A stretch of 41,607 nt of DNA from Desulforudis sp. GTDB taxonomy: Bacteria > Bacillota > Desulfotomaculia > Desulfotomaculales > Desulforudaceae. The notes under the pieces are model-generated. The model saw only the letters and a list, made by a program, of their open reading frames with translations, searched no databases and was not told the origin of the DNA. Shown here piece after piece: positions 30,812 through 32,599 of this stretch. Within the stretch, counting starts at the first letter, position 1, and each line of letters starts with the position of its first letter. Both the position numbers and the translations under genes were made by a program. The DNA is taken from contig JAHRFU010000120.1 in NCBI GenBank assembly GCA_019084485.1, forward strand, positions 1 to 41,607. The letters run 5' to 3'.

Positions 30812-31201
30812 GTGGTTAAGCGAAAGATTGTTCGTATTGATGATGACCTCTGTGACGGCTGCGGCCAGTGCGTATCACCGTGCGCGGAAGGCGCAATCGA
30901 ACTTCGTGATGGTAAAGCTAAAGTAATCCGGGATGAACTCTGCGACGGAGCGGGGTTTTGTTTGGGTGTCTGCCCAACCGGAGCCTTATCCATCGAGGAG
31001 CGGGAGGCCGCAGCCTTCAACGAAGGGGCAGTGGAAGAGCACTTGGAAAGCTGCCCCAAGACAGAAAGGTTAGGCCATGAAATTAACTGCCACAACTGTG
31101 GTGCTGATGACACCGACCGTGCCCTGTTCCCGATCCGCAAAGGCGGCGAAAGCACCTGGGTATGTGTCCGCTGTCTTCCGGCCCTGATTCACGGTCACTA
31201 G
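30812..31201 (+). CDS. Two-cluster ferredoxin with C-terminal zinc ribbon
   Basis: This 129-residue protein has a first iron-sulfur motif C14-x2-C17-x2-C20-x3-C24 and a second, C44-x5-C50-x3-C54-P, in which the second cysteine is replaced by Ala47. The first part (to about 78) ends EEREAAAFNEGAVEEHL, familiar from a clostridial ferredoxin family whose second site often has this CDGxGxC form. Residues 93-121 add a C-x2-C ... C-x2-C zinc ribbon (CHNC, CVRC) in place of the usual short tail. It is probably a cytoplasmic electron carrier; the partner is unknown. GTG start with AAGGAGG seven bases upstream. Confidence 0.85.
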   Translation: MVKRKIVRIDDDLCDGCGQCVSPCAEGAIELRDGKAKVIRDELCDGAGFCLGVCPTGALSIEEREAAAFNEGAVEEHLESCPKTERLGHEINCHNCGADDTDRALFPIRKGGESTWVCVRCLPALIHGH

Positions 31202-31228
31202 AACCGACGATTATCTGTTGGATAGGAG

Positions 31229-31417
31229 GTGAATGAGCTGGGCAAAAAGCGTGATGAACTGGACGAAAAACTGGTGATGCTGAACAACGACCCGCCGGGC
31301 CGGTTGGAAGTCGAAGACTACAAAAACCGAATCGCCGCCACCAGACCTGTTGTTGAGCCGGCAAACAAGAAAAGAACCAGGAAAGAAGATACCGAGCAAT
31401 GGCCACCCCGATTCTAA
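31229..31417 (+). CDS. Possible small charged protein after the ferredoxin
   Basis: An open frame of 62 codons (NELGKKRDELDEKLVMLNND ... EQWPPRF) lies 27 bases after the ferredoxin gene. It is very rich in Lys, Glu, Asp and Arg, and the first 18 residues could form an amphipathic helix. A strong TAGGAGGTGA precedes it, but the in-frame GTG overlaps that site; a non-standard CTG at 31238 would be at the right distance. It is not recognised. Confidence 0.4.
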   Translation: MNELGKKRDELDEKLVMLNNDPPGRLEVEDYKNRIAATRPVVEPANKKRTRKEDTEQWPPRF

Positions 31418-31444
31418 AACGTGAGAACTGTGGAGGTGGAAAAG

Positions 31445-31475
31445 CGGGACAGGGTGGAAAACGGGGACAGTCGCC
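31445..31475. repeat. REP-like half-element
   Basis: The stretch contains GCGGGACAGG and then GGAAAACGGGGACAG, close to the arm core at 8417-8441 and 8515-8539 (GGAAACGGGGACAG). No second inverted arm is seen nearby, so it may be a single or decayed REP unit. Confidence 0.45.
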
Positions 31476-31559
31476 CATTCCGTCTACGACCGGCACCACG
31501 AATGATGAAAATTGATACTCCCTATCGTTTGTTCCGGCAATACCCTCAGCGCGCACTGC

Positions 31560-31684
31560 ACCTTCCAGGTGTTGGTATTGGAAGGTAGGCCAGTGACAAC
31601 ACTGGGGTTGTCCAAGCGCTTTGGACCTCATCGAGGGCTCCCAGTGAGGACTGGGGGTCAAATGCCTGGTTCAGAAAACTGGGC
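31560..31684 (+). ncRNA. Candidate structured RNA: six consecutive hairpins
   Basis: Six stems follow one another with at most eight bases between them: ACCTTCCA/TGGAAGGT (31560-31586), CCAGTG/CACTGG (31590-31605), TCCAA/TTGGA (31611-31625), CCTC/GAGG (31626-31636), CCCAGT/ACTGGG (31640-31655) and GCCTGGTT/AACTGGGC (31664-31684). The last stem is complete only with two G-U pairs on the + strand, which favours + orientation. It matches no RNA family I know. It may also be the remains of a repeat. Confidence 0.35.
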
Positions 31685-31687
31685 GCC

Positions 31688-31804
31688 TTAGTAAAGCTGT
31701 TGCCGACGCCGACTTTCTCTGGAGAGTTGATCCAAACCGTTGCGCCATAAGGACAACCAATTCAGGAATTCCCGTGCTGTTCCCTTAAAGGTCATCAAAA
31801 CCAT
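31688..31804 (-). CDS. Possible 38-residue small protein
   Basis: An ATG at 31804 with AGGAGG nine bases upstream opens a frame of 38 codons (MVLMTFKGTAREFLNWLSLW, then a basic, glutamine-rich end). It has an aromatic, amphipathic middle and a strongly basic tail (SRESRRRQQ). It lies 75 bases after the endonuclease-like gene on the same strand. The product is not recognised. Confidence 0.3.
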   Translation of the reverse strand: MVLMTFKGTAREFLNWLSLWRNGLDQLSRESRRRQQLY

Positions 31805-31879
31805 CTGCCTCGCCCTCCTATTGCACTAAGCTTTACCAGTTTGCCAATTACTATGAGGCCGTGTTGACATAAATGTCCA

Positions 31880-32599
31880 TTATGGCATTCTCCAGCAGCT
31901 AGTAATGGCAAGGTCGCCGTACAGGGGGAGATGGTCAGAAGCCGAACTGGCGAATACCTTGACCGCCTCCGGTCTAAAGGGTTCGGACACAAAGATGTAG
32001 TCCAGTCGCTTCTGTGGATCTGTAGAAGGATATGTCGGGCTAGATGCGGGTTCTTCCGAGACTTCGCGAAACCTGCGCAGTACAGGCTGCAGTTCAGATG
32101 CTCGCGGCCGACAGTTGAAATCACCGGCCAGAATCACGGGTATCCTTACCCGATCAAGGCATTTCAGGATTGCAGTCACTTGGCCCGAACGTTCTTCCCG
32201 GTTTAGTCCGAGGTGTGTACAGCCGAGCCAGACCTGCAGTCCATCAATGTCAAGCCATGTTTCAAGCAAACTGCGCTGTTCGGCGATACCGGGCAGGAGA
32301 GTTCGACTGTATTTCGCGATCGTGAAACGGCTGAGCACCGCATTGCCATAAGCACCGACACCCTGAAAGCGCCGATTTTCCCCAAATACATAGTTCATTC
32401 CCAGTGCCTCTCCGAGAATTCGGGCTTGGTCCCTGAAGCCGGATCGGGTACGAAACCGGTCAACTTCCTGAACTGCTACTAAATCCGGGCGAAGCAGCGT
32501 CAGTGTTCGAATGGTTCTGTCCAGTGAGACCCGACCGTCGATGCCCCGCCCATGCCGGATATTGTAGCTGATGATGCGAAGCAAGGTCTGCACCCCCAT
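31880..32599 (-). CDS. Endonuclease/exonuclease/phosphatase-fold protein
   Basis: This 239-residue protein has the EEP-fold motifs in order: ISYNIRHG (Asn), VAVQEVD (metal-binding Glu), GNAVLSR, GDFNCRP (catalytic Asp/Asn), DYIFVS and SDHLPLYGDL (catalytic Asp-His). All catalytic residues are present. The family covers phosphodiesterases of nucleic acids, sphingomyelin and phosphoinositides; the substrate cannot be deduced. No signal peptide is seen. Confidence 0.88.
   Translation of the reverse strand: MGVQTLLRIISYNIRHGRGIDGRVSLDRTIRTLTLLRPDLVAVQEVDRFRTRSGFRDQARILGEALGMNYVFGENRRFQGVGAYGNAVLSRFTIAKYSRTLLPGIAEQRSLLETWLDIDGLQVWLGCTHLGLNREERSGQVTAILKCLDRVRIPVILAGDFNCRPRASELQPVLRRFREVSEEPASSPTYPSTDPQKRLDYIFVSEPFRPEAVKVFASSASDHLPLYGDLAITSCWRMP

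Follow-up and report, generated by a model that had tools for sequence, protein, structure and literature searches.

The row of six hairpins at positions 31560–31684 of a 41,607-nucleotide stretch of Desulforudis sp. DNA (hereafter, the window) is not a single array. The interval from 31451 to about 31590 is a copy of a dispersed repeat that has lost internal sequence, and hairpin 1 sits within its right end. Hairpins 2–6 (31590–31684) occupy a single-copy flank that begins at the repeat's end and has a local fold well past chance, better as + strand RNA than as its complement. On balance, we favor a composite explanation in which hairpin 1 would be part of the right end of an internally deleted RAYT/TIRYT-type repeat and hairpins 2–6 the 3′-end structure of a + strand transcript. 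An initial annotation had treated the six hairpins as one array; that interpretation is partly supported, but its unity is not. What looks to the eye like a striking row of hairpins can be the end of an element abutting host flank; if hairpins 2–6 are functional, the site would be one where a transcript end was replaced beside a mobile insertion.

Table 1. Features of the hairpin region and its neighborhood, with coordinates in the window.
Feature	Coordinates	Strand	Details
Ferredoxin-like 4Fe-4S protein gene	30812–31201	+	Pfam Fer4 families; upstream in presumed + operon
Small 62-aa ORF	31229–31417	+	last gene of + operon; 87% DNA identity to L187:825-960 (sister species G001)
Left module of repeat	31451–31514	+	GGGGACAGTCGCCC...GACCGGCACCACGAATGATGAAAATTG; ~20 own-genome copies, 82–94% identity
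Right module of repeat	31515–31590	+	ends ...GCACCTTCCAGGTGTTGGTATT..AAGGTAGGC; ~40 own-genome copies, 86–100% identity
Hairpin 1	31560–31586	+	9 bp in window copy
Hairpin 2	31590–31605	+	6 bp, CCAGTG-ACAA-CACTGG
Hairpin 3	31610–31626	+	6 bp, GTCCAA-GCGCT-TTGGAC
Hairpin 4	31627–31635	+	3 bp, CTC-ATC-GAG; weak, not in centroid
Hairpin 5	31636–31659	+	10 bp, two G-U (+ only), around CCCAGT-GAGG-ACTGGG
Hairpin 6	31664–31684	+	8 bp, two G-U (+ only), GCCTGGTT-CAGAA-AACTGGGC
Small 38-aa ORF	31688–31804	−	MVLMTFKGTAREFLNWLSLWRNGLDQLSRESRRRQQLY; convergent with + operon; stop codon 3 nt from hairpin 6
Endonuclease/exonuclease/phosphatase-family gene	31880–32599	−	Pfam PF03372, E 1.3e-21; syntenic in G001; upstream of small ORF

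Folded as + strand RNA, 31560–31684 yields five hairpins that are firm and a sixth with a stem of only 3 bp (Table 1), with a minimum free energy (MFE) of −53.7 kcal/mol in a free fold (z = −2.98). Because the claim concerns local hairpins, we then limited pairing to 30 nt; the MFE stayed at −53.7, 1000 dinucleotide shuffles had a mean of −31.7 (sd 4.7), and not one of them folded as low, which bears out the impression that the hairpins are denser than chance. Hairpins 2–6 alone, under the same limit, gave −43.4 against −26.2 (sd 4.1) for shuffles, and once more no shuffle in 1000 went as low. When the entire 41 kb was shuffled, in two versions, no tile attained the energy of 31560–31684. Within the window itself, the region ranks about sixth among 758 tiles by z-score, five tiles being stronger. 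By energy, nine further tiles of 125 nt equal it or come within 3 kcal; they fall in two or three places, at 24.75–24.93 kb and 40.45–41.3 kb, the stretch at 40.4–41.4 kb being markedly GC-rich.

The fold depends on strand, as had been proposed: over 31590–31690 the z-score is −3.43 on + and −1.39 on −, the + strand pairing better owing to the two G-U pairs in each of hairpins 5 and 6. Such pairs are therefore not confined to the last hairpin, and the stems range from 3 to 10 bp rather than from 4 to 8. Hairpins 2 and 5 do share a CCAGTG core, although the core does not have the same partner in both: it pairs with CACTGG in hairpin 2 and with ACTGGG in hairpin 5. The alternative pairings expected from this core are joined by a further stem, GACAAC/GTTGTC (31595–31600 with 31607–31612), which overlaps and competes with hairpin 2.

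The dispersed repeat was delimited by searching the window's own genome (2.34 Mb in 137 contigs). A query spanning 31540–31700 matched about 35 further places, in each case over its first 40–53 bases only, and a wider query resolved the repeat into two separate modules, left and right, which lie 50–270 bp apart in other copies and are directly joined in the window copy. Weaker copies of the left module occur in three genomes of the same family (G005, G007, and G003). A short form of the repeat (L213) is bounded by GGGGACAG...CTGTCCCC, and its outer ends read AAATGGGGACAGTCGCCC...AAGGTAGGCTGTCCCCATTT; the window copy carries GGGGACAGTCGCCC at 31463–31476 and is without the right-hand CTGTCCCC. 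Two tandem 18-bp units, GGTGGAAAA(G)CGGGACAG, stand at 31435–31470, the left module starting in the second of them, an arrangement that suggests a second partial left end.

Elsewhere, the material between the modules is itself modular, one component being a nested element that runs from GGGGACAGGCTACTTTTT to GCCTGTCCCC. At several loci (e.g., L038, L045, L052, L213, and L222) the repeat forms a mosaic in which these parts appear in varying combinations: the left end, the nested GGGGACAGGCTACTTTTT...GCCTGTCCCC elements, a module CTCACTCAGACAGGCGGTCGACGC, and another module, GGACACAGTCCAATTGAGAC...GTCATTACA. At two others (L051 and L061), two right ends stand head to head in inverted orientation, resembling paired REP dimers. 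Many copies are close to contig ends, presumably because repeats break assemblies.

Alignment of 22 right ends shows which part of hairpin 1 is kept. The best-kept pairing is CACCT/AGGTG (5 bp), with 93.6% of cells paired, against 78.9% for a longer stem, ACCTT/AAGGT. No both-sided pair change occurs in either stem across the 22 copies, so covariation supports neither. The 9-bp stem drawn in the initial annotation requires TTGGAAGG, present only in the window copy, whereas other copies mostly have TTTTCAAGG; that stem is thus private to the window copy.

The ends of the repeat point to a family of mobile elements. GGGGWSAS is the published motif of the terminal repeats on either side of TIRYT genes. 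These are genes of RAYT-like Y1 transposases (PMC3733652; PMC6006769), largely of subclass 2.1 TnpA_REP (PMC6006769); the repeat ends GGGGACAG/CTGTCCCC of the short form fit the motif. Searching the literature for GGGGACAG itself brought up unrelated papers only. The genome holds five Y1_Tnp (PF01797) genes. One of these, on contig C30, is the only one with GGGACAGGCTACTTTTT repeats nearby: two of them, from a related nested family, precede the gene, and an inverted AAAAGTAGCCTGTCCCC lies about 0.75 kb downstream. At the same locus (L209, C30:12900-16400), two tandem CCACAATAAGGGACAGGCTACTTTTT repeats precede the RAYT-like Y1 transposase gene, which makes it a candidate autonomous source of the nested family. 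No transposase or RAYT gene was found in the genome between two copies of the window's exact repeat, so the link to RAYT/TIRYT is one that we infer. The repeat would be non-autonomous, mobilized in the past by a Y1 (HUH, IS200-like) transposase of the RAYT/TIRYT type, which recognizes single-stranded structures at element ends, and the window copy, having lost its interior and its right-hand terminal repeat, is probably inert.

Hairpins 2–6 are single copy: the same genome gave no second copy at E values up to 10, apart from chance matches of 14–19 bases. By DNA, 113 genomes of the order yielded no credible match (the best other hit had E 0.008 over 21 bases), and 398 genomes of the phylum yielded none, as did phages and plasmids. 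A covariance search with a one-sequence model over the 113 order genomes returned a sole other match at E 0.066, which is not credible. As far as these searches reach, hairpins 2–6 have no homologue with compensatory changes, one of the outcomes that the initial annotation had set down as refuting it, though this does not disprove an RNA function. The earlier statement that the row matches no RNA class holds: Rfam gave no match at gathering thresholds, and permissive settings gave only a CRISPR-repeat match at 31726–31770 (E 2.3). Three other leads were pursued and rejected. These were an exact 20–24-mer search in IMG/VR, a tRNA or tmRNA identity, and a match of 31755–31792 in another genome (G049), taken as chance since the matching stretch, in L196, falls within a long reading frame that we took for a sigma-54-type regulator.

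We also folded the right flanks of 30 other copies of the repeat. Flanks less structured than hairpins 2–6 made up 29 of the 30, and the sole one equally structured relative to its shuffles (L056) reads as an ordinary terminator hairpin. The hairpins therefore do not come with the repeat or with the sites it targets, and we rejected them as a general feature of its right flank.

The position of hairpins 2–6 between the 3′ ends of convergent genes makes a leader role for a neighboring gene unlikely. Comparison with G001, a sister species of the same genus, bears on the + operon. There, an intrinsic-terminator-like hairpin, AACCGGGG...CCCCGGTT, marks the end of the small + ORF, with a predicted energy of −13.6 kcal/mol (L187:960-1015); the homologous stretch in the window (31380–31425) is predicted at −0.4 kcal/mol, showing that the putative terminator hairpin has decayed in the window genome relative to G001. 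On the − strand side, the G001 flank is unstructured and is followed by two extra genes; because the site is rearranged, the hairpin 2–6 sequence is not comparable there. A terminator scan of 31150–31950 found 0 sites, and no hairpin is followed by a U-tract on either strand, so that the combination of GC-rich stem and U-tract typical of an intrinsic terminator does not occur in this interval.

The 38-aa ORF on the − strand (MVLMTFKGTAREFLNWLSLWRNG...) is kept in G001, with 53% of aligned residues. Elsewhere in the order, conservation is weaker: several genomes have short ORFs that carry a related motif, F.GTV.EFR.WL..W. With no match in Pfam, the ORF looks like a member of an unannotated microprotein family.

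We consider that hairpins 2–6 would most likely act as the 3′-end structure of a + strand transcript, as a boundary or stabilizer, perhaps with Rho, and that they may have taken over from the intrinsic terminator that is kept in the sister species. The absence of shuffles that fold as well, the + strand bias, the convergent layout, and the decayed terminator favor this role, which would require transcription through the region. Since no U-tract is present, it would differ from classical intrinsic termination. Against it stand the lack of a U-tract or terminator site, the lack of a homologue on which covariation could be seen, and the unstructured equivalent flank in G001, though that flank is rearranged. 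The mobile-element half of the explanation is favored by the dispersed copies, the modules fused only in the window copy, the GGGGWSAS-like ends, and the five Y1_Tnp genes; what counts against it is that no RAYT gene is seen with the exact repeat at both sides.

Several other accounts of hairpins 2–6 deserve weighing. The G-U pairs that form on + only, z-scores of −3.4 to −4.5 on + and weaker ones on −, and the visible alternative pairings (the shared CCAGTG core and GACAAC/GTTGTC) would suit a lineage-specific + strand RNA with switchable stems, whether an independent small RNA or a structured 3′ UTR. We give this a minor chance, however, as neither DNA searches of the order and phylum genomes nor the structure model in the 113 order genomes found a homologue, Rfam holds no counterpart, the sole promoter-like site found is on the − strand, and no downstream + gene is present to be controlled. 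A variant seems quite doubtful: a young, species-specific + strand RNA with mutually exclusive stems, which would have arisen beside the inserted mobile repeat once the operon's terminator had decayed. The fold could also have been picked by chance from a structure scan of 41 kb, as the five tiles with stronger z-scores and the lack of detected conservation (own genome, order, phylum, and structure model) would allow. Chance keeps some weight because no independent sequence exists on which to test the pairing, but neither the 1000 local shuffles nor the two whole-window shuffles reproduced such an energy, and we hold it to be unlikely.

Debris of another mobile or palindromic, REP-like element, whose further copies were lost or diverged too far, is also improbable. 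Nested palindromic elements abound in the genome, and GTAGGCC (31585–31591), directly before hairpin 2, resembles the GTAG tag of REPs (PMC3733652). That GTAG is, however, the end of the dispersed repeat and precedes unstructured flanks too, and no second copy of the hairpins was recovered in the genome even at E 10. Finally, similarity to a protein gene had been named as a sign that the row is a decayed ORF. An open frame without a start does run on + from 31589 to about 31750 (ASDNTGVVQALW...), yet the one frame scanned through the region had no Pfam match, beyond 31688 the conserved small ORF on the − strand is the better explanation, and 53 open codons are unremarkable; a decayed gene is very improbable.

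Among known systems, terminators between convergent genes, intrinsic or bidirectional, share with hairpins 2–6 their place between two 3′ ends and differ in that there are five hairpins here, none with a U-tract on either strand. The repeat resembles bacterial MITEs in being short, non-autonomous, and dispersed, in having inverted repeats at its ends, and in including copies with internal deletions; unlike them, it has imperfect subterminal hairpins at both ends. With REPIN/BIME elements (pairs of GTAG REPs) it has in common a palindromic, intergenic, and modular make-up and a GTAG at the right end, but it is longer, has no standard GTAG REP core that we recognized, and is of moderate copy number (tens). 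The closest parallel is with TIRYTs and TIRtrons, in which terminal inverted repeats with GGGGWSAS lie beside RAYT-type Y1 transposase genes (PMC3733652). Like them, the window's family has terminal inverted repeats that fit this motif and is dispersed in many copies (about 40 right and 20 left ends), sometimes paired, in a genome with Y1_Tnp genes. It differs as a 100–400 bp mosaic of nested modules with hairpinned ends and with no RAYT gene found between exact copies, and it would add a mosaic, hairpin-ended family, from an anaerobic Firmicutes-like genome, to the poorly described RAYT/TIRYT-type elements.
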